A stretch of 20,808 nt of DNA from a virus (IMGVR_UViG_3300032326_001999:1-20808); one strand, 5' to 3'. Shown: positions 1-18,743, counted from the stretch's first letter. Translations and numbers: made by a program. The notes: generated by a model not told the origin, from the sequence alone.

Positions 1-3000
1 AGGGCATTTGAACAATCTGTTGGATTTGATATTAAAGTTCCTCCTTCTCGCAATAAACCTATAGATTTTAAAGAGGTTTTAGAAAAACCAATAAATAAAA
101 ATTTTAATCCAAAACTATATCAATCGAATACTTTTGCTGACGCACACTCTGGTTTAGGGCATACCAGCGCAGAAAATATAAGTAAAGTTATTAATCATAT
201 AGGTCAGAATTATTACGCTTATTCACCAAAACAAGGATCAAAAACAAAAAGATTAAAAATTGATGATGAAACCTCTATTATTTCTCAACCAGATCTTTTA
301 GGAGATTTGTTTATTCGTCCAAGATATACAGAAATTATTGGTGAAGGTTCAGATGTTCCAAAACAAATAGAAACTTCTTCCATTTCTAGTCTAAACACTA
401 CAGCTAAAAAGACTTTATTAAATGGAGTTTCTCAATTGGACTTTGATCGTATTTTAAGAAGAAAAATAAAGATGCAATTTGCTCAAGATAGAGTATATGG
501 TTCTGGTTTTATTCCTAATTTTGCTATACCAGTAGATTCTGCAAGAATACCTTGGTTCAAAAAATACGCATCTTCTTATAAAAATATAGCTTCAGATAAA
601 GATGTTTTCAGACAAATTGATTTTCCAACTTATGGAAAAGGATTAGATCATAATTATGCAAAAGTTGGAAATGCTGATATGGTTTCATTTTTATATGAAG
701 ACTTTGTAAGATCTGCAATAAATATCGCTTTAGGTTCTAAGCAAGCCGTAAGATCTAAAGAAGCTGGTTTTAAAAATACACCAACAAACGCTATATCTAA
801 TAGAGATCCAATAGATTTGGCGCAAAAAATTAGTGGTGCTAAATTTAGAATGCTTGAAGTTAAACAATCAAAAAACAATCAAAAAGAGACTATATCTCAA
901 ATTTCAGATGCAAAATTAAGAGGTCTTTTTCAAGAAAATCCAGAATTGGCTAAAAATGTTGAATTAATGTCGATTATATTTAATGATCCAAGATATGTCG
1001 ATCCTACAGGAAAAAATCCTGCTGGAGTTTTAAGTCCATTTGAGCAAAATATTGCGCCTATTGTAAAAAACAGTTACGCAGATGTTGATTCAACCATGAG
1101 GGGTAAACTTGGATTGCTTACAGATGGTTTATTAAAAAGATACGAAGCTAAGAAAAATTCATTTTCTAAAGGTTTTATTCCTAATTTTGCATATAAACAA
1201 GCAGTAATGGGCTTAGAAGAAAGCATGAGTGGTAACAAAGCTATCTTTGATATCAAGCCTTTCCCACATATCAGAAACAGCGGTCAACCAACATTTAGTT
1301 CTGCGATTGCTGATCATGGTGGTTTAGGCAATGCATTGAGTGATTCAATGAGAGAGCAGAAAGCTGCTGGATTAATGAGTAGGGGATTCGTGCCAAATTT
1401 TGCTACTAGACCTTATAGATATTCTGGTAGAGGATCAACAATAGATCCTAGCAGCAGTATTTCACAATATTCTACTAGTTTAGGATTAAGTTTAGCAGAT
1501 CAAGAAAGACAAGCTAGGGAAGAATTTAATAGAATTATAAATGCTTTGAGAGCTGGAGCAATGAATGCTCAACAGGCTACGACTGCATTTAATACTTTAA
1601 ATACTCAAGCTGGTTTATCTGCAAGAGCGCAAACGAGTTTAACTAGAATATTAACTAGAGAAGTAGCTGCTGCTGGTGCTGCTGGTGGTCCTAATGCTTC
1701 TAGAGGTTCAAGATTCAGCAGATTTTCTAAAGGTCTTTCAAGAGCTAGTACTGCAATATCTTTAGCTGGACCTGCAATAGCAGGATTTGCAGAACAATTT
1801 GCTTTTGGTGATAGACAAAGAACTGAAATGACATCAAACGAGAGAATTGGAAAATCTCTAGTTAGTACTGGTTTAAGTGCGGTTACTACTGGAGCAGGTA
1901 TTGGAGCTTCGTTTGGCGCTCCTGGTGCAATCATTGGTGGTGTCATTGGAGGATTAGTTGGATTAACATCAGCTTTAAATGGTGCAAAATTATCAACAGA
2001 AGAGTTATCGCAATTAGCAGAAAAACAGGTAACTGAACAAAAACAAATTATAGATTCCGGTGAAAAATATGTCGACGCACAGAATACTTATAGAAATTTA
2101 TTGCTACAAGGAGTTACAGGAAAAGAGCTAGAAAAAGCTTCTAAAAATGTAAAAAGCGCATTTGAAGAAATTAAAGATGTTAAATTAGCACAAGCTCTTG
2201 CTGAAACTAAAGATGGTGTAGAAGGTTTAAATTCTATTTTAGATCCTTATAGACAAAAACAAAAGAAATTAGAACAAGCTCAGGCGTTTTTAGCCGCAGA
2301 TCCAAAACAAACTGAATCTCTTTTATATAGTTCACTAGCAAATAGCAATCAAAAAGATATTTTTAAAAAATTATCTTCTGGATTTTTTTATAAAACTCCA
2401 GAACAATATTTTCAAAGACCAACCGCAGGAGGAGTTAATCAGTTAGGAGTAGGAAATTTAATAGGTAAAAATGCTTTAGAAGAGGGGTATGATTATGGGC
2501 AATTGCAAACTAGAGAATTAAATCAAATATTAGATAGCATTGTAAATTCTCTAGGCGAAGGATTAGGTGATGAAATGAAACAAGGTTTAAGATCTAAAAT
2601 TAGATCGTCTCTTTTAGATCCTAAACAAAGAGAAGACTTAATTAAAAATTTAACAAGCTTTTACGAAAATACAAATAAAAATTTAGGCAAACAAGCAGAA
2701 GATGAAAAAGAAATTGGTTATCTTTTAAAAACTAGAGAAATAGTACAATTAGAGATAATTAAAAAAATATCTGAAGCAAATTCTATTTTAAAACAATCTG
2801 AATTTTCTCAAAAATTATTATCTTCTATAAATGATTTTGAAATTTCATTAATGGAAGGTTTAGTAAGCCCATTGGAAGTAGCATCTAAAAAAGCTTCAAG
2901 CCAAAAAAATAAAATGGAGCAAGAAGCCAATAGAGAGCAAAGAAAATCTGTTATTAATTTTGTTAAAGAAAATTATGCACCTTTAATTAAAAGCAGCAAA

Positions 3001-5016
3001 AATCCAGAAATGATAAAAGATCAATTGGGACCAGCAATTAAAAAAATGCTTGAAGGCGATTTTACTGATTTTGAAAATATTGTGAATCCGCCTAGTGTTC
3101 TATCTCCAGAATTTCTTCCTAATGCAGTTTTAGACGCTGATGTGGTTTTAAAATTAAGAGAGGCTTATGAGATATTCAAAGAATCGCAAAAAGATCAAAA
3201 AGATAATTTTAAAAATGAATTAGATTTATTTAATAACGATACTTATTTACAAAATTTAAAAAATAAAACTATTTTACTTCAATCAGGTTTAATTAAAGAT
3301 GAAATCTCATTGATCGCTCAAAGAGAACGCGCAGAAATACAAAGAAAAAATACATTAGATTTAGAAATAGACGCTATAGAACGCAGACAATCTGATGAGG
3401 CTAGTTATTTTGGGCTTGGGGTTTCTGGAAAAGCTCAAGAAAAAATTAATTTTAGAAATCAAAGTTTACAAAAGAAATTACTTGATTCACAAATTTCTAG
3501 ATCAAAATCAGCACAATCAGATTATAATCAAGTTATTAAAATGCAGAATACTAATTTGTTAACTCAAGCTGATATTTTAGAATCTCAAGGTAGATCTGAA
3601 GAAGCTACAACCCTTAGACAAAAAGCGCAAAGTTATACTGGAGTTGAAATTAATAATTTAGATTCATTAAAAGAAGCTATATCAGGTATAGAAACTGCTG
3701 GTAGTTTTGCAGATCCAAAACAAGAAGAACAAAGAATAAATACATTAAAAAAACTTGAAACGATTCAAACTGAAATAATTGAAAATAAAACAAAAGAAAT
3801 TCAACTAAATGATAGACTAAATAAGCAAGAGCTTGTTATGGCTGAACGTTCTACTTCTTTTAAATATGGAGTTGTAAAAGGTTTTGATAATTTAAGAACT
3901 GAATCAGAATTGATGATAGGTCGTTTAGGCGAAGATCTTCCAAAAATGTTTGCTGATGGATTAGTTAATGGGATTAAAGCTGCTATAAGAGAATCTGATA
4001 ATTTAGGAAGTGCTTTGATGGGTATAGCTTCTACTTTTTTGGATACTATAAGCACAACATTAATGCAATCTGCGGTTTATGGAATATTAGGAAATCTTGG
4101 AGTTTCTAATTTACCAGTTGCCGCTAAACAAAGAGGAGGAGTAATTCGCGCTCAATCTGGTATGTATATTTCTGGAGTTGGTTCTGGAGATAAATATCCA
4201 GCATTGCTTGAGAATGGCGAATATGTATTGAATAGAAACGCAGTTATGGCAATGGGTGGCCCAGCATCACTCGACAAATTGAACTTTTCTGCTGCTCCTC
4301 GTTTTGCTGCGGGAGGAACATTTAGTAGTAGTTTTGATGATATTGCTTCTATGGAGTCTAATATGACTAGTTATGGACTTGAAGAAAGTAAATTATATAA
4401 CGAATTAAGAGATCAGAAGAGAGCGGAAATAGAAGCGGCTAGACAAAAGAAAAGAGCGCAAAAACAACAAATGGCTGGTTTAATTGGATCTCTTGCTGCT
4501 GGAGCTGTTAGTGTAGGTTTATCTGCTGGAGTAAGCAAATTAAATCAACCAGCAAAATTGCCTAAAGGTGGATATGCGGCAACAACAGCGGGTAAATTAG
4601 AAGCAGCAGCTAGTTTAAATGGAAGTCCAGAAATGATCACTCTAGACACTAAACAAACTGGAGGTTTAATTGGTTCTCGTTTATCAGATACCATTCCAGC
4701 TTATGCAACAGGTGGATTAATTAATTCTCCTATCGTAAAACGCTATGCAATAGGTGGTGTTTCATCTGCTGGATTCGGTACAGCCGCTGGAAATAACAGT
4801 ACTGTAAATAATAATACTAGTGCTAGTAATTCATTTAACTTTAATACTACTGTTCAAAGAGATGGTAAGATTCAAGTTGGTGCAAATAGCACAAGCTATG
4901 CTCAACAAGATGTAGAATTGTCGCAAAGCTTGAATGGTAAGGTTTACGATGTTGTTCTAGAAACTATTAGAAAAGAAAAACGTTTTGGCGGTTCATTAGC
5001 AGGAATAAGAAACTAA
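1..5016 (+). CDS. H: Tape-measure protein, 5' end outside window
   Basis: This protein sets tail length and is threaded through the tail tube; in lambda-like phages it leaves the tail during DNA ejection. The reading frame is open from base 1 (1,671 codons visible), so the TTG at 307 is only an internal codon and the true start lies upstream. The first ~470 residues are unlike a normal tape measure: three GF(I/V)PNFA motifs (502-525, 1165-1191, 1378-1404) separate extra domains. The classical part follows: a glycine-rich hydrophobic segment at about 1861-1980, a long Lys/Glu/Gln-rich helical region at about 2000-3850, another hydrophobic helix region at about 3955-4110, then the family's C-terminal signature (GDKYPALLENGEYVLNRNAV, 4186-4245) and repeated A-x-GG turns (near 4300, 4700 and 4750). 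A third short hydrophobic stretch is at 4471-4542. The next gene starts 4 bases after the TAA. Assignment as tape measure is strong; the role of the N-terminal domains is inference. Confidence 0.9.
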   Translation, partial: RAFEQSVGFDIKVPPSRNKPIDFKEVLEKPINKNFNPKLYQSNTFADAHSGLGHTSAENISKVINHIGQNYYAYSPKQGSKTKRLKIDDETSIISQPDLLGDLFIRPRYTEIIGEGSDVPKQIETSSISSLNTTAKKTLLNGVSQLDFDRILRRKIKMQFAQDRVYGSGFIPNFAIPVDSARIPWFKKYASSYKNIASDKDVFRQIDFPTYGKGLDHNYAKVGNADMVSFLYEDFVRSAINIALGSKQAVRSKEAGFKNTPTNAISNRDPIDLAQKISGAKFRMLEVKQSKNNQKETISQISDAKLRGLFQENPELAKNVELMSIIFNDPRYVDPTGKNPAGVLSPFEQNIAPIVKNSYADVDSTMRGKLGLLTDGLLKRYEAKKNSFSKGFIPNFAYKQAVMGLEESMSGNKAIFDIKPFPHIRNSGQPTFSSAIADHGGLGNALSDSMREQKAAGLMSRGFVPNFATRPYRYSGRGSTIDPSSSISQYSTSLGLSLADQERQAREEFNRIINALRAGAMNAQQATTAFNTLNTQAGLSARAQTSLTRILTREVAAAGAAGGPNASRGSRFSRFSKGLSRASTAISLAGPAIAGFAEQFAFGDRQRTEMTSNERIGKSLVSTGLSAVTTGAGIGASFGAPGAIIGGVIGGLVGLTSALNGAKLSTEELSQLAEKQVTEQKQIIDSGEKYVDAQNTYRNLLLQGVTGKELEKASKNVKSAFEEIKDVKLAQALAETKDGVEGLNSILDPYRQKQKKLEQAQAFLAADPKQTESLLYSSLANSNQKDIFKKLSSGFFYKTPEQYFQRPTAGGVNQLGVGNLIGKNALEEGYDYGQLQTRELNQILDSIVNSLGEGLGDEMKQGLRSKIRSSLLDPKQREDLIKNLTSFYENTNKNLGKQAEDEKEIGYLLKTREIVQLEIIKKISEANSILKQSEFSQKLLSSINDFEISLMEGLVSPLEVASKKASSQKNKMEQEANREQRKSVINFVKENYAPLIKSSKNPEMIKDQLGPAIKKMLEGDFTDFENIVNPPSVLSPEFLPNAVLDADVVLKLREAYEIFKESQKDQKDNFKNELDLFNNDTYLQNLKNKTILLQSGLIKDEISLIAQRERAEIQRKNTLDLEIDAIERRQSDEASYFGLGVSGKAQEKINFRNQSLQKKLLDSQISRSKSAQSDYNQVIKMQNTNLLTQADILESQGRSEEATTLRQKAQSYTGVEINNLDSLKEAISGIETAGSFADPKQEEQRINTLKKLETIQTEIIENKTKEIQLNDRLNKQELVMAERSTSFKYGVVKGFDNLRTESELMIGRLGEDLPKMFADGLVNGIKAAIRESDNLGSALMGIASTFLDTISTTLMQSAVYGILGNLGVSNLPVAAKQRGGVIRAQSGMYISGVGSGDKYPALLENGEYVLNRNAVMAMGGPASLDKLNFSAAPRFAAGGTFSSSFDDIASMESNMTSYGLEESKLYNELRDQKRAEIEAARQKKRAQKQQMAGLIGSLAAGAVSVGLSAGVSKLNQPAKLPKGGYAATTAGKLEAAASLNGSPEMITLDTKQTGGLIGSRLSDTIPAYATGGLINSPIVKRYAIGGVSSAGFGTAAGNNSTVNNNTSASNSFNFNTTVQRDGKIQVGANSTSYAQQDVELSQSLNGKVYDVVLETIRKEKRFGGSLAGIRN
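502..525 (+). repeat. GFIPNFA motif copy 1 in tape measure
   Basis: Encodes SGFIPNFA. It is the first of three near-identical octapeptides in the tape measure and separates an unrecognised N-terminal region (bases 1-501) from the nuclease-like region. Copies 1 and 2 share the DNA core ggttttattcctaattttgc. Confidence 0.85.
664..990 (+). other. PD-(D/E)XK nuclease-like domain within tape measure
   Basis: The core order of a PD-(D/E)XK nuclease can be read by eye: a helix with a glutamate (LYEDFV, E at 697-699), then DPIDL with the candidate metal-binding Asp at 814-816, then MLEVKQ with Glu at 856-858 and Lys at 862-864, then a Gln/Lys-rich helix. The 13-residue gap between Asp and the ExK motif is normal for this fold. 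The region lies exactly between GFIPNFA copies 1 and 2. This is motif recognition without a structural search, and short ExK motifs can occur by chance. Boundaries are approximate. Confidence 0.42.
1165..1191 (+). repeat. GFIPNFA motif copy 2 in tape measure
   Basis: Encodes SKGFIPNFA, 663 bases after copy 1. It closes the nuclease-like cassette and opens a short 62-residue cassette that ends at copy 3. Confidence 0.85.
1378..1404 (+). repeat. GFVPNFA motif copy 3 in tape measure
   Basis: Encodes SRGFVPNFA, 213 bases after copy 2. Its codons differ from copies 1 and 2 (for example gtg, cca) although the peptide is kept, which points to selection on the peptide. What follows is ordinary tape-measure sequence. 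Confidence 0.85.
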
Positions 5017-7769: not shown

Positions 7770-8575
7770 TGAGCAAATTCATAAAATATGAGAATATAGA
7801 TTTTAGAATTAATAATACTGTTTATTATTCTAATTCAGTATCTATTTCTTTGCAATCTAATATATCCCCAGTGCTTTTATCTGATGGAAGTTTATTAAGA
7901 TATGCACCAGAAAATACAGTTATAGGATCTTTGTCTTCTCAGTTTTATTTAACTGGAACAATTCCATCTTATTTGTTTCCAACTACAGATTCAGAAGATT
8001 CAATAAATTGTTCATTTGGTGGAATTGCTATAGACAATTGTTATATTAAGTCCATGTCATTCGCTGTAGCGGATTTTTCTTCTATTGTTATGGATGTTAC
8101 TTTTGATTGGTATGGAAAAATAAATACAATAAATAGCACATTAAATCTAAAAGAATTTACATCGTCAAGAAATTCTCCTTTGACAAATATAGCTCATGCA
8201 AATCATAGTTATATAATAGATGTAAGTAAAGTATTTGGTTTTGATGAGATATTTAAATATACTTATTCTGAACAATGCGATAGAATACCATTTTTTGAAG
8301 TTGGATATATAACACCTTTTAGAGTGGCTAAAACAAATAGATTAAAAAACGTTTCAGTTGAAGGTAACGTGGTGAAACAAAATAACATTGCTGAAGTGGA
8401 AGGCAGAGATACATATTGTGAATTATATTTAAAAAATTATGAAAATTCACTATTAAATACTTTTACTATTTCAGGAAAAATTCAGTCCAGATCTATTGAT
8501 ACTAGTTCTGATGGAATAGTTCAAAGCAATTTAGCTATAACTCAACGTGTAGCGCCATTAAGAAATACATTATGA
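7769..8575 (+). CDS. Tail-tube-fold protein B
   Basis: A 268-residue beta-rich protein. Residues ~92-117 (CYIKSMSFAVADFSS then MDVTFDWYG) align by eye with the GYLNSFGLSCSVGE strand pair of the protein at 5021-5965. The C-termini also align: FTISGKIQSRSIDTSSDGI here against a matching strand-turn-strand with a SADD turn there. I therefore call it a tube-fold paralogue, perhaps a second ring at the tail tip. Its ATG shares one base with the upstream TAA and its TGA overlaps the next ATG by four bases, so translation is probably coupled. It begins MSKFI, as does the next gene, with 11 identical first bases. Family membership is moderate; which ring it forms is unknown. Confidence 0.5.
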   Translation: MSKFIKYENIDFRINNTVYYSNSVSISLQSNISPVLLSDGSLLRYAPENTVIGSLSSQFYLTGTIPSYLFPTTDSEDSINCSFGGIAIDNCYIKSMSFAVADFSSIVMDVTFDWYGKINTINSTLNLKEFTSSRNSPLTNIAHANHSYIIDVSKVFGFDEIFKYTYSEQCDRIPFFEVGYITPFRVAKTNRLKNVSVEGNVVKQNNIAEVEGRDTYCELYLKNYENSLLNTFTISGKIQSRSIDTSSDGIVQSNLAITQRVAPLRNTL

Positions 8576-10569
8576 GCAAATTTATAGATTCACAATTTTC
8601 TGTTTCTGGAATAAAGAATTTTTCTTTAACAACTTCTTACAATCAATATGACTTGGTTGATTTTCAGTATTATACAGGCAATTCTAGTTATCCAACAAAT
8701 TTATCAGGTTTATTTGCTTGGTTTAATTTAGATAATTTAAATAATATTGAGTTTGATGGTTCTGGAAAAGTGAATCTTTGGTATAACTCCGCTCCCGGTC
8801 ATTCTTTACAATATTTAGTTAATTTAGATTCTACAGTTACAAAAGAAACTCGTCCAATCTTTGATGATAAAAAGAATACTATTTCATTTAAAGCGTTCAA
8901 TGAAAATCAAGAATATAATCAGTTATATACATCTACAGATTTTTCAGGATTTTTATCTGATGATAGATGTTGGTTTATCGTTTACGAATTCGATTCTTTA
9001 AGAAATGGATCTCAAACGGTTAGTGGGTATTTTTCTAATTTTTCTACAATAATAAATACTGACGATTCAAATCCAATAAAATCAAGTGGTTATTGGGGCG
9101 TTTATGGAGATAATTCTAATGGAATTTTAAATAGTAATGTTCCTAATGGTTCCCAAGAGTTTATTGGTGGACCTACGGAAGCTATATATCCATCTCCATC
9201 GACTATAAATTCTTCATTTTCAGCAGCAAAATTATTAAATAATAAAAATATTATATCTATAATAAAAAATAACACATCAAATACTTTACGCATAAGAAAT
9301 AATGGTTATGAAATATTAAATATAGTTAGTGCAAATTATTTTCATGTAAACTCTGATAATTTAAGATTGGGTACAGCAGGAAATGGTCATGGTAATGCTG
9401 CTACAAGTGAATTGTATAACTATGATGCAAGTAATATTTCTTATTATGAAATACTAGGATACTCAAAAGTGCCAACTGATGAGCAAATCCTGCAAATAGA
9501 AAAATATTTATTTAAAAAACATTTCACCAATGATGATAATTTATATTTAACAACTGAAAATTTTACAGCTTCTGACTATCGTTATTCTCCAATAAATATC
9601 ACTGGATCTCAATTTTTAACAAAGAATCCAGATCTTTTGTTTAAAAAAACTTATGGATGTTCAGCTAGTTTTTCTACTAAATCTTTAAGAATGCAATATG
9701 GAGATGGTTATTATACAAACGTAACTCCAAACATAAATAATTTAACTAGCAATTTTAGTTTAACTTACGATGGTTTGTCAGATACTCAATCAAAAGCATT
9801 AATAGGATTTTTTCAAAATACTTTTGAATATACTCCATTAAATATTGAGGAATCATATCAGAATGTAAATATGGATTTATTTTATCCATACAAAAATAAT
9901 GCTAAAATATATTTTGAAAACTTAAATTATTCATCTAAAGAATCTAACCTAAATATGGTTAATATAAATTGCGTTTCAGTTTATGATTCAAGTTTGGATT
10001 ATCGTGGATTCCTGGTTACAAGTAATGAGGTTCTTAGATATTACGAACAAACAAAAACATATATTAAAAATGATGTCGTATTCTATAAAAATATAGATAA
10101 TGCTTTAGAAGGTTATTATTGGTATACTGGAGCAAATAATGTTATTTTAAGTGACTCAACTAGCCCAACTGGATCAAATTCTTTATTTACTAATAAATTT
10201 TATTTTAAACCGGATATTGATTATACTATTCCAATGTCTCCAAGATTTTTGAAAAATGAATACGAAATGACTGCACCAGCTTTTGAAAATAATGGCATAA
10301 ATAAAACAGTTTTAGCTTTTGATTTTGCATTCAACAATAGATCTGATAAAGAGGCAATAGCACTATTAAAATTTTTAGATAATAAAGCTGGTTTTAAGAT
10401 TTTTGAAATAAATTTGCCAGCGCCTTATAATAAAACGATAGATGTTTATTGTCCAGAGTGGAGTCATACATATAAATTTTATAACAATCATGAAATATCA
10501 GCTAAGTTCTTAGAATTTAAAGGTAAAACAGATTCTGACATATTTTTTAATACGCTATTACAACTATGA
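8572..10569 (+). CDS. gpM-like distal tail protein, duplicated, with LamG-like insertion
   Basis: A 665-residue modular protein. Residues 1-43 read like the first half of a CBM5/12-type module (SYNQYDLVDFQYYTG). A LamG/concanavalin-like domain follows at about 44-318, ending in the typical YYEILGYSKVPTDEQ plus helix. Residues ~322-360 then look like the second half of the first module. The first gpM-type domain (364-482) has the lambda gpM signature R-M-Q-YGDGY (373-380). A second CBM5/12-like module (490-547, TYIKNDVVFY) precedes a second gpM-type domain (552-662) with FLDNKAGFKIF, LPAPYN and VYCPEW, which match the C-terminal half of gpM. The [CBM-like + gpM-like] unit is thus duplicated. 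Position between tape measure and L-type gene fits gpM. Lambda gpM is only about 109 residues, so this is a greatly enlarged form. Start is an ATGA overlap. Confidence 0.68.
   Translation: MSKFIDSQFSVSGIKNFSLTTSYNQYDLVDFQYYTGNSSYPTNLSGLFAWFNLDNLNNIEFDGSGKVNLWYNSAPGHSLQYLVNLDSTVTKETRPIFDDKKNTISFKAFNENQEYNQLYTSTDFSGFLSDDRCWFIVYEFDSLRNGSQTVSGYFSNFSTIINTDDSNPIKSSGYWGVYGDNSNGILNSNVPNGSQEFIGGPTEAIYPSPSTINSSFSAAKLLNNKNIISIIKNNTSNTLRIRNNGYEILNIVSANYFHVNSDNLRLGTAGNGHGNAATSELYNYDASNISYYEILGYSKVPTDEQILQIEKYLFKKHFTNDDNLYLTTENFTASDYRYSPINITGSQFLTKNPDLLFKKTYGCSASFSTKSLRMQYGDGYYTNVTPNINNLTSNFSLTYDGLSDTQSKALIGFFQNTFEYTPLNIEESYQNVNMDLFYPYKNNAKIYFENLNYSSKESNLNMVNINCVSVYDSSLDYRGFLVTSNEVLRYYEQTKTYIKNDVVFYKNIDNALEGYYWYTGANNVILSDSTSPTGSNSLFTNKFYFKPDIDYTIPMSPRFLKNEYEMTAPAFENNGINKTVLAFDFAFNNRSDKEAIALLKFLDNKAGFKIFEINLPAPYNKTIDVYCPEWSHTYKFYNNHEISAKFLEFKGKTDSDIFFNTLLQL
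8701..9525 (+). other. LamG/concanavalin-like lectin domain in gpM-like protein
   Basis: Residues 44-318 have the order of phage LamG domains: LFAWFNLDN, then LWYNSAPG, a long beta-rich core, ILRIRNNG-type strands (LRIRNNGYEI), LRLGTAGN, and the closing ISYYEILGYSK followed by an amphipathic helix ending KYLFKKHF. It appears inserted into a loop of a small CBM-like module. Ligand unknown; a surface glycan is the usual kind of target. Boundaries are approximate. Confidence 0.6.
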
Positions 10570-13310
10570 TATATACGAATTCTACTGGTAAATTTATTGG
10601 TGAATGCATGACTGGTTTTGGTATTAATTATCCTGTTTATATTTATAATAGCGGTAATTCTGAGGTTATTTATACAATAACAAGTGATGATAGTAATTTT
10701 TTATTGTCAGATCCACAATTAATAATATCTAACGGTTCATCAGATTATTTTGATATTTTTTTCAATCCTACTGCTAATGGTATATCTGGTTATGAAACAT
10801 CATTAATAACTATATCTTCCGAATCTACTGAAGATGGATCAGCAGATCCAAGTGGTAATATAACAATATATGTAACAGGTCTTAGAATAGTTGACACTAC
10901 GGGTGGGCATGTTAGAAAATTTAGAGCCTTAAAAAATTATGATCCAACTAATGGATTAAGTTATTCTTTTTATTGGAGACCGCCAACTGGAACTGGATCT
11001 TTAAATAATTATTTTATAACTGGATATGGTTTAGATATAGCTACAGATACGGCTTTCAGTACTAAAGTAGTTTCGCAAACTTTCAATATCGCTCAGAATA
11101 GTTCTGATCCGATATATTCTACAAATTATGGATTTGAAGATGAAGACGTTTTTCAAAAAATACAAGCCTATGATAATGGAAATCTGTTTGAATTAGATCA
11201 ATCTTATTATGCAAGAATGTATACTTGGATTGATGGTGTTACTGGAGAATCTGTTTATGCTACAGGTATAAATCAATTAGATACTCAATTATCTAATCAA
11301 GTATTGACTGGTAATATGAGTAACAAGGTGGATTTAATGTTTACTGAAAATGCTCTTGATATTTATATATCTCCTCAATCTGTTTATACTAATTATAACT
11401 TATATGAAAAATTTGTTTCAGCAAACAAAGGAAGCGCTAATTTTAAATATATCTCTGGAATAAATGTTTACTTGCCAGATTTGACTACTTTTACAGCAGA
11501 CAATGAAAATCAATACTGTTTAAATTTAAATGGTCAATTAGAAAATTTTAGCGGAGATGCAACATACGGTACAAATATAAATATATATTTATCTAATACA
11601 ACTAAGCTTTTAGGATATGCTGGTAAAGGTGGAGATTTGAAGGGTTCTATTATAAAAGGATTAGAAAGAAATCAGAATACATATTCTTTTAATGATCTTT
11701 TTTCTCAAACTTCAACCGCTTACTCACAAGCAAATTCAAACATTACAGATGCAAAAAATGGAGGCTCAATTTTTAACTTTAATATAACTTCTAATATTAT
11801 TAATGATAAAGAGTATACAGATTTAAATTATAATGTAATTTCAAAAACAAATTCTTATGTTACTGCTGGAGGTGGAGGTTCTAAAGCATTAGTTGCTTGG
11901 ATATATGGAAATGGTAAAGCTAATGTTGGTGGAACAGATGAATATAATAATGCATATCCATTTGCTTTTCCTATTTTTGGATCTCCAAATACTAAAGGAG
12001 CTACAAGTTATAAACTTTATGAAACTCAATTAGGATCTATAACAATAGCTGCAAATGGAAAAGAAGCTTTTGCTGCTATAACTGCTGGATCTAATTTTGG
12101 CACAATATCTTCTTATCCGCATGTTTATGGAGAAAGCGGCTCTTTGTATCCACTTCTTCAAATTACATCAAATACAAATAGTTTAGGTTTTAGCCCTAAT
12201 CTTTTTGGAGTTGATACTGGACAAAAAATTGATACAAAAGTTGTCAAACCAAACGATTCATTTACGCCTAGTTTATATTTTAATAGAATTAATGATAATC
12301 AAAGTTCTGCTGGTAAAATTTTAAATGGTTTTTCAAATATAAAAGCTAATTTTACGATAGATGGTGGAAATATTGCTTCTGATTATCTTTTTAGATTTGA
12401 AAATTCAGCTATAGATTCTATAAATAAAAACTGGAAAGATACTACTACTACTGCAACTTTAGATGGAAGTACTGCTGCTGGTATTTTTAATAATTCTTTT
12501 TACTCACATACTGCAAAAAATTCTGTTACATTAAACAGCTCTCAATATCTTGATTATACATTTGGAGTATCAAACACGACAATGATAAAGAAAAATTGCA
12601 ATCAATTTGATCTTTATATGGTAGTAGCTTATAGACCTATTACAAAAGATACAAAATTTACAGACAATAGCACTTATTCATTGTCTAAATTTAAAATTTT
12701 AGATTGGTCTTTAAATTTAGATAACACAATTGTAAATCAGATTTTAATAAAACCATTTCCTTATAATGATAGCGTAAGATATTACAAAAAAGAATTTAAT
12801 GTTTTTGAATTTTTTGTTAGTCCATTATTTAATATTAGAAACGATAATACAAAAATGGCAGATGCCTTGTGGTATAATCCTGGGATATTAGCTGAAAATA
12901 ATTTTGTTCAATTATCTAAAAGCTTGTTAAATGCTAACGATTATTATCCAATGTTGTTAAATATAAAACGAACAAATACAACATATTCAGTTTATATAAA
13001 TGGAAACTTAATTGTTACTTATAATATGGGTTCGTATGTAAATTTTGCAGATTCTTATATAACATCAATGATTGATGGCACTACTTTAAAATTAATAAGC
13101 AATTGCGCTACAGCAAATGAAAGTATGAGTTATTTTGATATAATTTTTTATAATAGATTATTAAATCCTAATGAAAATCAGCAACTTAACAATTCATTAT
13201 TAAATTCATATTTTAAACTTTTTACAGGAGGAACGTCGTCATCTTTAAATATCAAATCTAATCAAGTGAGACTGCCAAATGCTTTTAATTTAGCTGGAAA
13301 ATCTTTATGA
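10566..13310 (+). CDS. Large modular tail-tip protein: Ig/ASH, FN3, fibre-like and LamG-like domains
   Basis: A 914-residue protein. Residues ~1-110 resemble an ASH/HYDIN-type Ig domain (VYIYNSGNSEVIYTIT, FFNP, an SLITI strand). About 113-245 read as a fibronectin-III-like domain (HVRKFRALKNY, YARMYTWIDG). About 270-370 has the pattern of receptor-binding fibre segments: a GINVYLPDLT strand, an Asn-rich LNGQLENF turn, then INIYLSNTTKLLGYAGKGG; a glycine-rich TAGGGGSKALVAW stretch follows. About 600-885 looks like a LamG domain closing with FDIIFYNRLLNPNE and a helix, matching the end of the LamG in the previous gene. No catalytic motif was seen. Start and stop are ATGA overlaps with both neighbours. 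There is no lambda counterpart between M and L, so it is an added gene, probably displaying binding domains at the tip. Exact function unknown. Confidence 0.62.
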   Translation: MIYTNSTGKFIGECMTGFGINYPVYIYNSGNSEVIYTITSDDSNFLLSDPQLIISNGSSDYFDIFFNPTANGISGYETSLITISSESTEDGSADPSGNITIYVTGLRIVDTTGGHVRKFRALKNYDPTNGLSYSFYWRPPTGTGSLNNYFITGYGLDIATDTAFSTKVVSQTFNIAQNSSDPIYSTNYGFEDEDVFQKIQAYDNGNLFELDQSYYARMYTWIDGVTGESVYATGINQLDTQLSNQVLTGNMSNKVDLMFTENALDIYISPQSVYTNYNLYEKFVSANKGSANFKYISGINVYLPDLTTFTADNENQYCLNLNGQLENFSGDATYGTNINIYLSNTTKLLGYAGKGGDLKGSIIKGLERNQNTYSFNDLFSQTSTAYSQANSNITDAKNGGSIFNFNITSNIINDKEYTDLNYNVISKTNSYVTAGGGGSKALVAWIYGNGKANVGGTDEYNNAYPFAFPIFGSPNTKGATSYKLYETQLGSITIAANGKEAFAAITAGSNFGTISSYPHVYGESGSLYPLLQITSNTNSLGFSPNLFGVDTGQKIDTKVVKPNDSFTPSLYFNRINDNQSSAGKILNGFSNIKANFTIDGGNIASDYLFRFENSAIDSINKNWKDTTTTATLDGSTAAGIFNNSFYSHTAKNSVTLNSSQYLDYTFGVSNTTMIKKNCNQFDLYMVVAYRPITKDTKFTDNSTYSLSKFKILDWSLNLDNTIVNQILIKPFPYNDSVRYYKKEFNVFEFFVSPLFNIRNDNTKMADALWYNPGILAENNFVQLSKSLLNANDYYPMLLNIKRTNTTYSVYINGNLIVTYNMGSYVNFADSYITSMIDGTTLKLISNCATANESMSYFDIIFYNRLLNPNENQQLNNSLLNSYFKLFTGGTSSSLNIKSNQVRLPNAFNLAGKSL
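12363..13220 (+). other. LamG-like domain, C-terminal in modular tip protein
   Basis: Residues ~600-885. It contains YLFRFENSAIDS, FDLYMVVAYRP, YSVYINGNLIVTY, LKLISNC and the closing FDIIFYNRLLNPNENQQLNN, the same order of landmarks as the LamG domain at 8701-9525. Boundaries are approximate; the ligand is unknown. Confidence 0.55.
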
Positions 13311-14368
13311 AAACTTTATTTAAATTAAATAATTATTTAATATTAGACTTGTTTGAAATCGAATTAGAATCAAATGAAGGTTATCTTCGTTTTCATGGTT
13401 CTAAAAATTTTTCATCTAATATAGTTTTTCAAGGCAATCAATATACTTTTATACCTTGTGAGTTTTCTTCTTTTGAAACTTCGTCCGATGGAAAACAAAG
13501 TAGACCAATTTTAAAAATAGCTAATATAAATAACTACTTTTCTAAAATTCTAAAAGATCGAGCCGATCTTATTGGCAAGAAAGTGTTTAGAAAAAAAATA
13601 TTGGGTAAAGATCTTGACTCTATTAATTTTACAGATGGAATCAATCCATTTGGTGTTTCAGCTTTTAATACTTATGTAGCATACGATAAGTTTATAATTA
13701 ATTTAAAAAAATCAGAAAATTCAGAAAATATAGAATTAGAATTGGTGACTAAGGTTGATATTGAAAATTTATCATTGCCTAGTAGAAAAATAACTAATGA
13801 TACTTGTTCTTGGAATTATAGATGTTATGGATGTAATTATGGAAATACTCCAGCATTCAAAGGGCCACAAATTAATTCAACTCCTTTAAATAAGTTGGAA
13901 TCAAGTTATTTATATTTTAAAGAAAGCGCTTGGCAAGGAAATGCTAGTTCTCCAGATCCAGGTTTACCAGTAGCAGACGAAAACGATAAAACGTTCTTGA
14001 GCGCTTACAAACAAGATTTAGCGAATAATTCTTATGGTTTAACAGCTATTACTTATAAAGGCGAATGGTCATCAACTATAACATATAATTCTGGGGATTT
14101 TGTTTATGTTGATCCTGTTTTAAGTTTAGACGCACAACAAGATGTGAATAATATTAATTTTATTAATAAACCAAAAACTTTTTATGTTTGTGTTTCTAAT
14201 AACGTTTTAAACAAATTTCCAGATAAAAATACAAATGTTTGGAAACAAGATAAATGCTCAAAAACTTTAAGGGGATGTTTATTAAGGTTTGAAGATTATT
14301 TGTCTGATGATGGGGCTTTGCCTTTTGGGGCTTTTTCAGCAACTTTTCCATTCAATAATGATAAATAA
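13307..14368 (+). CDS. L: gpL-like minor tail protein with Fe-S cysteines and CBM-like insertion
   Basis: The lambda gpL family binds a [4Fe-4S] cluster in its C-terminal domain and sits in the tail tip. Here C167, C173 and C176 lie in TCSWNYRCYGCNYG, and C317 and C324 lie in DKCSKTLRGCLLRF, followed by LPFGAF; the second motif closely follows the gpL ending (D-K-C-S-K, G-C, then R-F and L-P-F-G). The family needs four cysteines, so one of C167, C173 and C176 is probably spare. About 140 residues separate the two cysteine pairs, far more than in lambda. Much of that gap looks like a CBM5/12-type module (W254...TYNSGDFVYVD...FYVCVSNN...W312). N-terminal residues 1-160 are the usual beta-rich portion. 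The start overlaps the upstream stop by four bases; the stop overlaps the next gene by 11 bases when that gene starts at 14358. 353 residues, against about 232 in lambda. Confidence 0.8.
   Translation: MKTLFKLNNYLILDLFEIELESNEGYLRFHGSKNFSSNIVFQGNQYTFIPCEFSSFETSSDGKQSRPILKIANINNYFSKILKDRADLIGKKVFRKKILGKDLDSINFTDGINPFGVSAFNTYVAYDKFIINLKKSENSENIELELVTKVDIENLSLPSRKITNDTCSWNYRCYGCNYGNTPAFKGPQINSTPLNKLESSYLYFKESAWQGNASSPDPGLPVADENDKTFLSAYKQDLANNSYGLTAITYKGEWSSTITYNSGDFVYVDPVLSLDAQQDVNNINFINKPKTFYVCVSNNVLNKFPDKNTNVWKQDKCSKTLRGCLLRFEDYLSDDGALPFGAFSATFPFNNDK
14042..14250 (+). other. CBM5/12-like module between the Fe-S cysteines of gpL-like protein
   Basis: Residues ~246-314 show the small aromatic module pattern ITYKGEWSSTITYNSGDFVY, FYVCVSNNVLNKFP and a closing NVWK. 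Chitin- or peptidoglycan-binding CBM5/12-type domains have the same W, Y-x-x-GD-x-V, Y-x-C and closing W order. It stops five residues before C317, so it would loop out from the metal site. Recognised by eye only. Confidence 0.5.
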
Positions 14369-14684
14369 CGAACTAAAAGATCATATAAAATCTATATGTA
14401 TTAATAAATCTTCTGAAGTTTGTGGTTTTATAGTTTATGATGGAAATAAAGAATCTTTTATTGAACTAGAAAATAAGCATCCATTGTCAAATGATTTTTT
14501 TTTGATATCTCCAATTGATTATTTATCTGTTAAAAATAAATTTACTATAAAATACTTATTTCATAAACATAATAATTCAGACAATTTTTCAGAATCAGAT
14601 ATCCATTATCAAAAATTTCATTGCTTGAATATGTTGATTTATAACATCAACACTGATAATTGGTCTGAAATGAAGTGTAAATAG
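14358..14684 (+). CDS. K: JAMM/MPN-domain tail protein (gpK-like, no NlpC/P60 part)
   Basis: With the ATG at 14358 the protein has 108 residues and begins MINNELKDHIKS. It shows the JAMM zinc-protease order: E20 (SSEVCGF), H69-x-H71 (FHKH) and S78-x-x-D81 (SESD), plus the family's F-x-ISP-x-DYL turn at 48-56. Spacing from H71 to S78 is one residue shorter than the classic motif. Lambda gpK has a JAMM domain followed by an NlpC/P60 peptidoglycan hydrolase; here the frame stops after the JAMM fold, with no NlpC/P60 part and no such domain elsewhere in the window. An in-frame ATG at 14289 would add 23 residues (Leu/Met/Phe-rich, not family-like) and lengthen the overlap with the L gene to 80 bases, so I prefer 14358. 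It ends with TAG. Position between L and I types supports the call. Confidence 0.75.
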   Translation: MINNELKDHIKSICINKSSEVCGFIVYDGNKESFIELENKHPLSNDFFLISPIDYLSVKNKFTIKYLFHKHNNSDNFSESDIHYQKFHCLNMLIYNINTDNWSEMKCK

Positions 14685-14691
14685 TATTATC

Positions 14692-15186
14692 ATGGTCAAT
14701 ATAAAATTACATGGTGTTTTTGAAAATCATATAAAGCTTGATTGGAATTTAAATATTCTAACTGTAGCTGAAGCTTTTGAAGCTATTGAAGCTAATACTG
14801 GAAAATTAATTAGCACTTTGGGTATATTAGAAGAATATATATCTAATTTTATTATTTATGTTGATGGTAAAATAATGCCTCCTGAGTATATAAATTCTCC
14901 AATATTGAAATCAAATTCTAAAATCGAAGTGATTCCATTGATAATGGGAAGCGATTTTGGTATTAGCTTATTAATTTTAGCTATATCTATAGGAATTCAA
15001 TTTTTGATTACAAAATTATTAACTCCAAAATCACCAGTTGATATAAAAACAAATTCTAGATTATTCTCTTCTTACGAAAACGTAACTAAAAGAAATGTTC
15101 CTATTCCTATAGGTTATGGGCGTTTAAAAATTGGATCTATAGTTGTATCAAATGATCTTACTAATGTAAATGAAATTGCATCATGA
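14692..15186 (+). CDS. I: Tail assembly protein I, ubiquitin-like domain
   Basis: A 164-residue protein in the position of lambda I. The N-terminal ~85 residues read as a beta-grasp (ubiquitin-like) domain: VNIKLHGVFENHIKLDW, a helix TVAEAFEAIEANTG, then strands to IEVIPLIMGSD, as in the lambda tail-assembly I family. A hydrophobic segment follows at ~89-110 (FGISLLILAISIGIQFLI), typical for this family rather than proof of membrane insertion. The C-terminal hallmark is VPIPIGYGRLKIGSIVVS at 136-153, matching the family's 'VPI-x-YGR-x-x-VGS-VVS' ending. The JAMM gene directly upstream and this ubiquitin-like gene are the well-known phage K-I pair. It starts 7 bases after the upstream TAG without a Shine-Dalgarno and overlaps the J-type start by four bases. 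Confidence 0.82.
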   Translation: MVNIKLHGVFENHIKLDWNLNILTVAEAFEAIEANTGKLISTLGILEEYISNFIIYVDGKIMPPEYINSPILKSNSKIEVIPLIMGSDFGISLLILAISIGIQFLITKLLTPKSPVDIKTNSRLFSSYENVTKRNVPIPIGYGRLKIGSIVVSNDLTNVNEIAS

Positions 15187-18100
15187 AAATAAATTTATCT
15201 AAATCAGATATCAACATGTTTAATGCCTCTGCAAATTCGCAGGGTTTTACAGTTAATTCTGAAAGTTTTTATGAAGCTGTCGATTTAATTTCAGAAGGTC
15301 CAATTGAGGGATTAACAGATTCTTTTGGAAATGCTTTAAATTATATAGATTTAAGCTCTAGCGTTTCAACGCAAACAAATGGATCTTTGGCTTATGGGGT
15401 TTATTTTAATGATGTATCTATAAAAGATAGAAAAAGCAATTTGTTTAATATTAGTTCTTCAGATTTTTCTTTGTCTTTGGGTTCTGAGACTTCTAATATT
15501 CCTGCTATTTCCAGTTCAGTGTATGAATATAAAACTAAAATATATGATTTAAATAAAAGTATTCCTGAGTTTTCTAAAGTCGATGAAGATAAAATATCTC
15601 CTAATTATATATTAACTTCTTTTAATGAAAGTGCGACAGGTGATCCTTTTTTAAAATCTATAATAGATTTAAAAAATAATGCTAGAGTTTTTTCTCACTA
15701 TTTAAAAAATAAATATGCTAATTTAATAAAAGTTATTATTAGCTTAGATGACTTGTATTATGTAGCTGCCGAAGGAACTAATTTTAATAATACAGTACGT
15801 TTTGTAATTAGTTTGACAAATTCCTTCAAACAAAAAACTGAATATTTGCTTTTTCAAGGTTATATAATAGCTAAACAAAATTCTGTTTTATTAACTTTTG
15901 AATTAGAAATAGATAAATATGATAAATTAGATAATATTAATTCTGAATTTGTTGTTAATATTTATAGCGTTCAACAAAGAATTCCAGCGAGTGGTCCTAG
16001 AAAGGGCGTTTTAACAAGAAGTTTTTCTGTTAACAGTATAATTGAAATTGTTAATTATAATTTTTCGTATCCTTTTTCAGCAATTTGTAGGAATAAAGTG
16101 AGTTCTAAACATTTTAGTTCTGTTCCTGTAAGAAGTTTTGATTGTAAGCTTTTGAAAATAGCAGTTCCAGATAATTATGATTCAGAATCTAAAGAATATT
16201 CGGGTGATTGGAGCGGTAATTATAGCAAGTCTTTAAGATGGTCTGATAATCCGGCGTGGATATTTCATGATTTATGTATAAATGGTAGATATGGTTTAGC
16301 TAAATCTATATTGACAGAAAATGATATTAATAAATGGGAACTGTATAAAATTTCAAAATATTGTGATGAATTAGTTAAAACAAATTGTTCTACAAAATAT
16401 ACTCCTCAAGATTTTCATTTTAATAATTCTTTTATTTTTGGACAAGAAGGTTTTAATACAATACAAATAACAACTACAGATGATATTTTTACTTTGCAAA
16501 ATAAATATCCATTTGGTGGTACTTTATTTTTATATGATATCAAAAATGAAATTGGCGAAGATTTAAATTTAAATGTTAAAAAAGTAATTGGAGCAATAAC
16601 TACAAATGGATCTATAGCTACAATAAATTTATATAATGATTTTGGTCCTCGCAAATTTATAGAATCAGATTTAAGTGGGAATTTTTTTGTAGCTTTAAAA
16701 GAATATATATTAAAAGATCCTTCTCTGTTGAATACTCAAGACAAAATAAAAACATTCGCTGTTTCTTATATTTCTGGATATAAAAATACAATTGCAAATT
16801 TCGCTTCTACTAATGAAGCTGTTTCTATAAAATACGCTTCAGCAAAAATTTTTGATACTAGTTTAAAAGTTAAATCTGGAAAATGCGTTGCTAGACAAGA
16901 AGGGTTTTCAGATTTTCTAGAACAAAGATTTGCGGCAAATATTCTTATTAATAGTGAAACAGAAGGATTAAGAATTTTATCTGATTTAGCTTCTATTTTT
17001 AGAGGGGTATTTTATTTTAAAAATGGGTATTTAAATTTAACAAGTGATGTAAAAAAGCCGGTTTCTTATGTCTTTAATAATTCTAATGTAAAAGATGGTT
17101 TCTTTACATATTCCTCTAGTAATTTAAATACTGCTTTTTCAGTAATTAAAGTATCTTATCTTGATCAACTTGATAATTTTAAAGATAAAATTGTTTATAT
17201 TGAAGATGCAAATTTAATTCAAAAATTTGGAATAATTGAAAAAGAAATTCTTGGATTTGGAATTACTTCTAAATATCAAGCTCAAAGAGTCGGCAAGTGG
17301 TTTTTATCTACTGGAAAATTAGAGTCTCAAATAGTTAATTTTAATGGTGGTATAGAAATGTCTTTGTTGAAAGTTGGAGATATTATTAGAATAAGCGATG
17401 ATTTAAAAAATAGCAATATTAATTTTGGAAGAATAACTTCTTTGGATTATAAAAATAGTTATGTAGGAATTGATAGAGAAGTGTCTGAAAACGCTTTAGG
17501 AAGTATTATTAAAATATTTAGTTTGGTTGAAAATGAATTGTCCGAATTGTCGTATTATGTAAGTGAAGTAGATAACGCTAATTTAAAATTAAAATTGATT
17601 AATTTTGCGTATATTTCTTGGGATATAGTCAGTAAAGTAATATCTTCAGACGATGGAAAAACTGTTTATGCTGATGGTATTGGAACAGCGGGTTGGACTA
17701 GAAAAGCTTTTACAAAACAAAGTTATATAAATAATTGTCAAATATCTTTTAAAGTAACTTATGATGGAACTTATTTAGTTTGTGGATTAAGCGAAATAAA
17801 TAATACTACAGTGGATCAAACTGATATAAATTATGGTTTATATATAGCTGCTGGTTCTTTATACTCTGTAGAAAATATAAATAACACGACAACAACAACA
17901 AATTTAAATAAAACAGTAGTTTCAACTGATATTTTGAGTGTTGTTTATGATGGTTCTTCTATAATTTATTATTATAATAATGAAAAACTAAGAAATATTA
18001 CGAGAGCTAAAGGTAATGCTTTGTATGGTGTTGTTGCTTTTAATACACCATATGCAAGAATAAATGATGTTAATTTTTCTTTATTTCCAGATCTTGATTA

Positions 18101-18743
18101 CGGCTCTTTTTCAAATTTAAGAAGCGATGCTTCTTTTAGTATTTATCTTAATGATTATGTAGAAGATGGGGATTTGTATCGAATAACTAATATAGGAGAA
18201 AATTCAGCTAATGAATATTCAATAGCGGCAATGAAATATTCTTATGAAAAATTTGATTTTATTGAAAAAGATGAATATGTAGATATTAGTCAAGATAATA
18301 AAAAAGAAATAATATTTTCTACAGATACTTATATTTCTTCTGCTTTTACTGATTCTCAGATTCAAATATTTTTTACACAAGGTTTATTGTTTGATCAAAA
18401 CATAAATTATTTAACTTCGATTAACTCTAATTATGATTATTCGTTTAGTATAGAAAATGAAACTTTAGATTCAGGTTTTGCAGAAAATAAATTTAAACAA
18501 TTAACTATAGATTTTGAAAATATATTTAATTCTGGTTCTGTGTCTACAAATCCTAAAGTTCATGGTTTATATTGTATCATAACTAAAGATGGAAAAACAT
18601 TGAAATTTAAGATTTTAAGATCAGAGGCAAAATTTATAAAACTATTTTTAGGAGAAACTCCATTAAATAGAATTAATTTTAACCCTCAGTATTCTATTGA
18701 TTTCTACGCTTTTGATCAAAACATGAAATTAATTAATGTGTAA
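15183..18743 (+). CDS. J: Central tail-tip / host-specificity protein (gpJ-like)
   Basis: An 1,186-residue protein homologous to lambda gpJ, which forms the trimeric tip hub and contacts the receptor. Hallmarks: LISEGPIEGL at 35-44; GDWSG at 341-345 and WSDNPAWIFHDL at 353-364, then NGRYGL and KYCDELV near 367-398; EGFSDFLEQRFAANI (about 575) with LASIFRG and a DGFFTYSSS strand; and FGITSKYQAQRVGKWFL near 695-710. A concanavalin-like domain (813-972) then interrupts the chain, after which the usual YRITNIGEN...EYSIAAMKYSYEKFDFIEKD strand set of the gpJ FN3 region appears. The C-terminal ~150 residues are beta-rich and unrecognised. Size is close to lambda gpJ (1,132), but the long fibre part seems to be a separate downstream gene. 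Start is an ATGA overlap with I. Confidence 0.88.
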   Translation: MKINLSKSDINMFNASANSQGFTVNSESFYEAVDLISEGPIEGLTDSFGNALNYIDLSSSVSTQTNGSLAYGVYFNDVSIKDRKSNLFNISSSDFSLSLGSETSNIPAISSSVYEYKTKIYDLNKSIPEFSKVDEDKISPNYILTSFNESATGDPFLKSIIDLKNNARVFSHYLKNKYANLIKVIISLDDLYYVAAEGTNFNNTVRFVISLTNSFKQKTEYLLFQGYIIAKQNSVLLTFELEIDKYDKLDNINSEFVVNIYSVQQRIPASGPRKGVLTRSFSVNSIIEIVNYNFSYPFSAICRNKVSSKHFSSVPVRSFDCKLLKIAVPDNYDSESKEYSGDWSGNYSKSLRWSDNPAWIFHDLCINGRYGLAKSILTENDINKWELYKISKYCDELVKTNCSTKYTPQDFHFNNSFIFGQEGFNTIQITTTDDIFTLQNKYPFGGTLFLYDIKNEIGEDLNLNVKKVIGAITTNGSIATINLYNDFGPRKFIESDLSGNFFVALKEYILKDPSLLNTQDKIKTFAVSYISGYKNTIANFASTNEAVSIKYASAKIFDTSLKVKSGKCVARQEGFSDFLEQRFAANILINSETEGLRILSDLASIFRGVFYFKNGYLNLTSDVKKPVSYVFNNSNVKDGFFTYSSSNLNTAFSVIKVSYLDQLDNFKDKIVYIEDANLIQKFGIIEKEILGFGITSKYQAQRVGKWFLSTGKLESQIVNFNGGIEMSLLKVGDIIRISDDLKNSNINFGRITSLDYKNSYVGIDREVSENALGSIIKIFSLVENELSELSYYVSEVDNANLKLKLINFAYISWDIVSKVISSDDGKTVYADGIGTAGWTRKAFTKQSYINNCQISFKVTYDGTYLVCGLSEINNTTVDQTDINYGLYIAAGSLYSVENINNTTTTTNLNKTVVSTDILSVVYDGSSIIYYYNNEKLRNITRAKGNALYGVVAFNTPYARINDVNFSLFPDLDYGSFSNLRSDASFSIYLNDYVEDGDLYRITNIGENSANEYSIAAMKYSYEKFDFIEKDEYVDISQDNKKEIIFSTDTYISSAFTDSQIQIFFTQGLLFDQNINYLTSINSNYDYSFSIENETLDSGFAENKFKQLTIDFENIFNSGSVSTNPKVHGLYCIITKDGKTLKFKILRSEAKFIKLFLGETPLNRINFNPQYSIDFYAFDQNMKLINV
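17619..18098 (+). other. Concanavalin-like beta-sandwich inserted in gpJ-like protein
   Basis: Residues 813-972 run from WDIVSKVISSDDGKTVYADG through GWTRKAF, a FKVTYDGTYLVCGLS strand pair, INYGLYIAAGSLYSVE, SVVYDGSSIIYYYNNEKLR and ARINDVNFSLF. This is the strand order of phage-fibre carbohydrate-binding sandwiches (GL-x-E, Y-x-N-x-E). Conserved gpJ sequence lies on both sides, so it is an insertion. Confidence 0.6.

Follow-up and report, generated by a model that had tools for sequence, protein, structure and literature searches.

Binding-type modules inserted into the core tail-tip proteins of a lambda-type siphophage, and a gpM with two ring-type domains

Are the lectin-like segments in the tail-tip genes of IMGVR_UViG_3300032326_001999:1-20808 parts of the core folds, or are they inserted modules with a role of their own? 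This AT-rich record of 20,808 bases, here called the window and analysed as a whole, comes from an uncultured virus of bacteria. It is filled by tail genes of a lambda-type siphophage, and homologues of gpM, gpL, gpI and gpJ follow the tape measure gene in lambda order, as expected of a lambda-type tip. Additional genes separate gpM from the tape measure gene before it and from gpL after it. Foreign modules were found in three core proteins (gpM, gpL and gpJ) and in one extra protein, and gpM itself is a tandem of two gpM domains. An initial annotation had read such segments as glycan-binding-type modules covering the tip, perhaps for multivalent, reversible attachment; its observations are partly confirmed and its interpretation is partly supported. 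The features concerned are the following (lengths in amino acids, aa; CBM, carbohydrate-binding module).

8572..10569, +, gpM-type distal tail protein, 665 aa (PF05939 5.3e-13)
8707..9531, +, LamG/concanavalin-type jelly roll in gpM, about residues 46-320 (structure model and fold matches)
9574..10011, +, gpM-like domain 1, residues 335-480 (PF05939 7.1e-6)
10009..10206, +, Y..NDVVFY...YYWYTG segment of gpM, residues 480-545 (CBM5/12-like by eye only)
10204..10551, +, gpM-like domain 2, the canonical gpM core, residues 545-660 (PF05939 7.7e-11)
10566..13310, +, extra protein between gpM and gpL, 914 aa (immunoglobulin (Ig), HYDIN-like; FN3-like; Gly-rich; LamG-like)
12336..13307, +, LamG-like C-terminal part of the extra protein, residues 591-914 (hhalign to the gpM LamG)
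13307..14368, +, gpL-type hub protein, 353 aa (PF05100 5.6e-36)
13805..13834, +, first cysteine pair of the [4Fe-4S] site, C167/C176 (invariant alignment columns)
13847..14239, +, insertion between the gpL cysteine pairs (window 180-311 versus lambda 186-200)
14063-14104, +, weak CBM5/12-like motif W..T.TY..GDFV in the gpL insert
14255..14278, +, second cysteine pair, C317/C324 (invariant columns; matches lambda gpL 200-216)
15183..18743, +, gpJ-type central tip protein, 1186 aa (phrog_31 4e-90; PF13550 4e-13)
17607..18098, +, SPRY/B30.2-type sandwich in gpJ, residues 809-972 (structure model and fold match)

Modules in gpJ, gpL, gpM and the extra protein

Searches of the whole proteins with PHROGs and Pfam name the cores and not the modules, and a plain Pfam scan of the window calls neither LamG, SPRY nor CBM, so that these calls rest on structure models and family profiles. 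Viral contigs yielded many relatives, which fall into two groups. In group 1, that of the window, gpM and gpL are mostly 53-94% identical; in group 2, gpM is about 35% identical.

A concanavalin-like sandwich had been annotated at residues 813-972 of gpJ. It was recovered at nearly those residues (809-972), and its subtype is SPRY/B30.2. In an AlphaFold2 (AF2) model of residues 700-1045, the predicted local distance difference test score (pLDDT) is above 90 through most of the module, and the fold matches are SPRY domains of RanBP9/10 and Ash2L (Z 16.6, root mean square deviation (rmsd) 3.2, 164 residues), with CBM66 lower in the list (Z 14.2). The assignment is at the fold level only; the Pfam SPRY profile (PF00622) gave no match, and a PDB sequence search with the module's family profile gave a hint only (SPRY7, 0.21). 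No match to the module was found by tblastn in cultured phages. The sandwich is absent from lambda, P-HS2, the relatives L170 and L090, and the group-2 loci with a complete gpJ. The site holds 14-15 residues in lambda and P-HS2, 30 in L170, 40-46 in group 2, 60 in L090 and 180-199 in 95 group-1 sequences. The L170 and window proteins are colinear (32-780 with 30-800 at 45% identity, 774-998 with 958-1186 at 44%) and differ by a clean indel, in which only the sandwich is missing from L170. The SPRY site lies within an accessory beta-sandwich (lambda residues 483-569) that is itself inserted in HDIV, according to the published domain limits of lambda gpJ (PMC10721106).

In gpL the insertion separates the two halves of the iron-sulphur site, the function of which was left open in lambda (PMC10721106). 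The four cysteines are spaced C-x8-C ... C-x6-C, as in lambda (C173/C182 and C205/C212), and about 130 residues lie between the pairs, versus 12-14 in lambda. Among 80 distinct gpL sequences, the insert measures 12 residues in lambda, 110-149 in 61 sequences (the usual size in the window's group), 193 in L113, 254 in L205 and 380-500 in 16, the approximate range of group 2. In group 2 a LamG domain occupies the site, and the same C-terminal segment comes after it. This LamG is homologous to that of gpM (hhalign probability 95, E 2.4e-8, 222 columns; hmmsearch 3.9e-6), such that one LamG family is housed in two different core proteins, window gpM and group-2 gpL. The gpL of Synechococcus phage S-CBS4 has 465 residues, with about 250 between the cysteine pairs; in the other annotated cultured phages examined gpL has 190-245. 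PDB sequence searches with the family profile of the insert gave hints only, to All3316 at 0.4, to lambda gpL at 0.45 and, at 4.8, to a chitin oligosaccharide deacetylase.

The LamG domain annotated in gpM was borne out by an AF2 model, built with 20 sequences, that contains a confident jelly roll at about residues 45-318 (also delimited as 35-318), the remainder being poor (mean pLDDT 56). Its top fold match is the tailspike of cyanopodophage Pan3 (Z 18.3, rmsd 3.1, 219 residues), and others are trans-sialidase chains (Z about 17) and domain 4 of the arabinanase AbnA (Z 15.0). Clostridial neurotoxin binding domains also appear among the matches; they share the common jelly roll, and their functional meaning was set aside. 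As Laminin_G_3 (PF13385) has no match in the window, this assignment, too, holds at fold level only. A PDB sequence search with the gpM family profile gave nothing useful, and tblastn of the gpM protein in cultured phages gave no match. A common origin of the LamG modules and the gpJ sandwich was considered and is unsupported by sequence comparison.

For the extra protein at 10566, the claim of a LamG domain has moderate profile support: its C-terminal part aligns with the gpM LamG at hhalign E 0.0015, and none of 77 other segment pairs fell below 0.017. Recognisable core sequence, said to lie beside each insertion, is present in gpM, gpL and gpJ and not in this protein, in which no lambda-type core could be recognised; it is therefore taken as an added protein and is a likely candidate for a dedicated adhesin. 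Of the proteins compared it diverges fastest, with a mean identity of 0.34 for the Gly-rich region and 0.39 for the LamG-like one. The L170 homologue passes the cut-off for HYDIN-like Ig. PDB sequence searches gave nothing useful with the LamG family profile and a hint only with the N-terminus (HYDIN, 0.11). In Burkholderia phage Bcep176 a fibre gene occupies the corresponding M/L interval. A homologue of 1099 aa (L166:10022-13318) has a weak match to an endosialidase beta-barrel (0.0013, below cut-off).

Because the gpJ sandwich is missing from relatives, and the gpL insert varies from 12 residues in lambda to 380-500 in group 2, where it includes LamG, the segments in gpM, gpL and gpJ are inserted modules and not core. 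The gpJ SPRY and gpL LamG modules are gained or lost with the neighbouring core homology kept. Natural pairs with and without a module, L170 and the window for gpJ, and lambda with groups 1 and 2 for gpL, make a decoration role testable.

Two gpM domains in one chain

From N- to C-terminus, gpM consists of a short N-terminal segment, LamG, gpM domain 1, a CBM-like segment and gpM domain 2. PF05939 has two distinct matches in the window gpM (9640-9822 and 10195-10515), and of eight records examined, six have it twice and two once, the order being constant. The family hidden Markov model of domain 1 matches the 117-residue single-domain gpM of S-CBS4 (7.8e-9, plus a second colinear piece), that of domain 2 matches lambda gpM (2.6e-7), and the two domains match each other (hhalign E 7.9e-6). 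Since the halves match different cultured single-domain gpMs as well as each other, sequence comparison identifies gpM as a tandem of two gpM domains, with LamG preceding the first half and two ring domains in a single chain. The initial annotation had missed this arrangement, and a limited literature search turned up no earlier account of a distal ring protein built as a tandem. The CBM-like segment and the N-terminal segment also resemble each other weakly (hhalign E 0.0032).

In the lambda tip, six gpM subunits in two conformers form a threefold ring (PMC10721106), and in T5 three copies of the fused-pair tube protein pb6 form a pseudo-hexamer (PMC5717097). By analogy with both, the ring here likely contains three gpM copies and not six. 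We lean slightly towards a more general proposal, in which fused, non-equivalent ring domains let three chains make the distal ring with one LamG-bearing half each, and the gap between the gpL cysteine pairs serves as a general plug-in site. The step from a sixfold tube to a threefold hub, which lambda takes with two gpM conformers, would then be fixed in the gene, making tandem gpM a simple genetic solution to this symmetry step. With LamG on one gpM half only, three heads of lectin type would sit above the modules of gpL and gpJ. The plug-in site would measure 12 residues in lambda, some 82 in R4C, about 250 in S-CBS4, and about 110-149 and 380-500 here, and the iron-sulphur site appears as a recurrent insertion point.

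Possible roles of the modules

We propose, as a probable rather than a secure explanation, that the modules face outward on a lambda-type tip and make multivalent, low-affinity contacts to surface polysaccharide. Lambda-type ring and hub proteins would have acquired jelly-roll and other binding-type modules at separate permissive sites: LamG preceding the tandem gpM, a small domain between the gpL cysteine pairs and, within the accessory domain of gpJ HDIV, the SPRY sandwich. The 10566 protein, with its Ig, FN3, Gly-rich and LamG-like parts, would be a likely dedicated adhesin in addition. Displayed in multiples of three, the modules would hold and orient the tip through weak contacts ahead of receptor-triggered ejection. 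Glycan binding is likely, judging from the folds and from precedents. Module sequences diverge faster than cores (mean identity, with row sets that differ somewhat between proteins and thereby weaken the comparison: gpL core 0.74 versus insert 0.50, gpJ 0.68 versus SPRY 0.41, gpM 0.70 versus LamG 0.60), which, with the gain and loss of two modules, is as expected for surface-contact domains.

Several further points weigh against this proposal. The SPRY/B30.2 fold is best known for protein binding, and for the gpJ module a protein ligand is equally possible. The gpM core is modelled poorly (pLDDT in blocks of about 30-65), which makes any placement of LamG relative to the ring tentative, and the outward placement of the modules is borrowed by homology from lambda and R4C. 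LamG was found in every gpM relative aligned, and for that reason could be structural in this phage group. The annotated CBM5/12-like modules are weak: the motif in gpL is visible, but PF02839 scores 11.7 bits where the curated cut-off is 26.2, covering profile positions 1-14 of 44, and the gpM segments have no database support for CBM5/12. The label is a lead, and the match is too weak for chitin to be argued from it.

The constancy of the gpM LamG (271-281 residues in the window's group) suits an alternative in which the modules are tip cement, bracing neighbouring subunits or anchoring fibres with no host ligand, and tails often have accessory domains that serve a structural role. Such a brace, if essential, would not be expected to come and go as the gpJ SPRY and gpL LamG modules do while the core remains recognisable, nor to diverge faster than that core, and we consider structural decoration rather unlikely as the general explanation. 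Recognition of host surface proteins instead of glycans, by the gpJ module and perhaps others, seems less likely still. It draws on the best fold matches of this module, which are to SPRY/B30.2 domains of protein-binding factors, and on its being, with residues 1-280, the fastest-diverging part of gpJ; yet CBM66 lies few Z units away in the same list, the LamG modules match tailspike and sialidase-associated domains, and a ligand is not readable from a fold. That the segments are divergent but integral parts of the gpM, gpL and gpJ folds would explain why plain Pfam scans leave them unnamed, and is very improbable: complete homologues of the three proteins without the modules exist (lambda, P-HS2, L170, L090, group 2), and in gpL and gpJ they align on both sides of the gaps, the gpJ of L170 and the gpL of lambda already contradicting it. 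The initial annotation had named two outcomes that would refute it, segments integral to the core folds and segments shared by all relatives down to minimal ones; on both, the comparison favours insertion.

Neighbouring genes and known decorated tips

The remaining features of the window are the following.

1-5016, end portion of a tape measure-like protein
5021, 5967 and 7769, three further proteins between the tape measure-like protein and gpM
14289..14684, +, gpK-like protein, JAB/JAMM part only, HKHNNSDNFSESD (phrog_30 6.4e-12; motif in the sequence)
14692..15186, +, gpI-like protein (phrog_32 1.1e-14; ThiS 0.0012, below cut-off)
16362..16904, +, gpJ segment of about residues 394-574 without a counterpart in lambda gpJ (lambda 312-320), carried by both groups
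18752, collagen-like fibre protein, open at the window end

The tape measure-like protein contains several G-F-I/V-P-N-F-A repeats. The 5021 protein has a weak match to the tube family PF18906 (0.3); comparison gave no support for a relationship between this protein and the 7769 protein, or of either with the gpM domains. A homologue of the 7769 protein (L170:6299-7990) is extended at its C-terminus by about 298 residues that resemble GDSL/SGNH hydrolases (PF13472 at 0.024, under the cut-off, with the motifs GDSM and DDTHMN) and may form a tail-tip esterase. The true start of the gpK-like protein may lie farther inside the open reading frame, and the NlpC/P60 part of lambda-type gpK was not seen in it. 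The only match in a genome contig, in a Flavobacteriaceae metagenome-assembled genome (L205:8498-11437, chromosome CP070778.1), is an isolated pair amid bacterial genes, consisting of a LamG-like protein of 490 aa and the gpL with the 254-residue insert between its cysteine pairs. It is a relic or an assembly artefact, and is too distant for host assignment.

Decorated tips as such are already known, and the analogy drawn by the initial annotation has close published precedents (evolved Dit/Tal, PMC7291167; R4C, PMC10276861; LSH1, PMC13243795). In the evolved Dit and Tal proteins of Gram-positive siphophages, CBMs occupy loops of ring and hub proteins, and host binding has been demonstrated for some (PMC7291167, PMC10688798, PMC6669499). 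The window shares with them binding-type modules added to ring and hub proteins with the core intact; they differ in their galectin-type Dit, gp27-type Tal, BppA-type CBM and hosts, and the iron-sulphur hub site is not described for them. The marine roseophage R4C, likewise a siphophage of a Gram-negative host, has sugar-binding-type domains in Dit, hub and megatron, and its hub domain 162-243, between iron-sulphur halves 142-161 and 244-266, occupies the same site as the gpL insert. It differs in its RcGTA-type tip, with Dit a C6 hexamer, and in its modules (an oligosaccharide-binding hub domain and a CBM11-like megatron domain); the available part of the report describes neither a LamG nor a SPRY module (PMC10276861).

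Alishewanella phage LSH1 has a similarly decorated lambda gpM homologue, with an additional galactose-binding-like N-terminal domain, and hypervariability was reported around the gpL C-terminus and gpJ N-terminus. Its single gpM domain, however, is modelled as a 6-fold ring, its hub is fused, the decoration has another fold, and the gpL C-like region lacks the iron-sulphur cysteines, unlike that of the window (PMC13243795). Lambda itself has gpM, gpL with four cysteines of the same spacing, gpI, and gpJ with HDIV, into which a beta-sandwich is also inserted; it differs in having a gpM of 109 aa in six separate copies, a gpL of 232 aa with a 12-residue linker, and neither LamG nor SPRY (PMC10721106). 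T5 pb6, with its duplicated, fused domain, is a model for tandem gpM, although it is a tube and not a distal ring protein, and its duplication is independent (PMC5717097). Compared with these systems, what is new here is that a single lambda-type tip combines inserted modules of several kinds: a LamG family common to gpM and gpL, SPRY in gpJ, and a tandem gpM.

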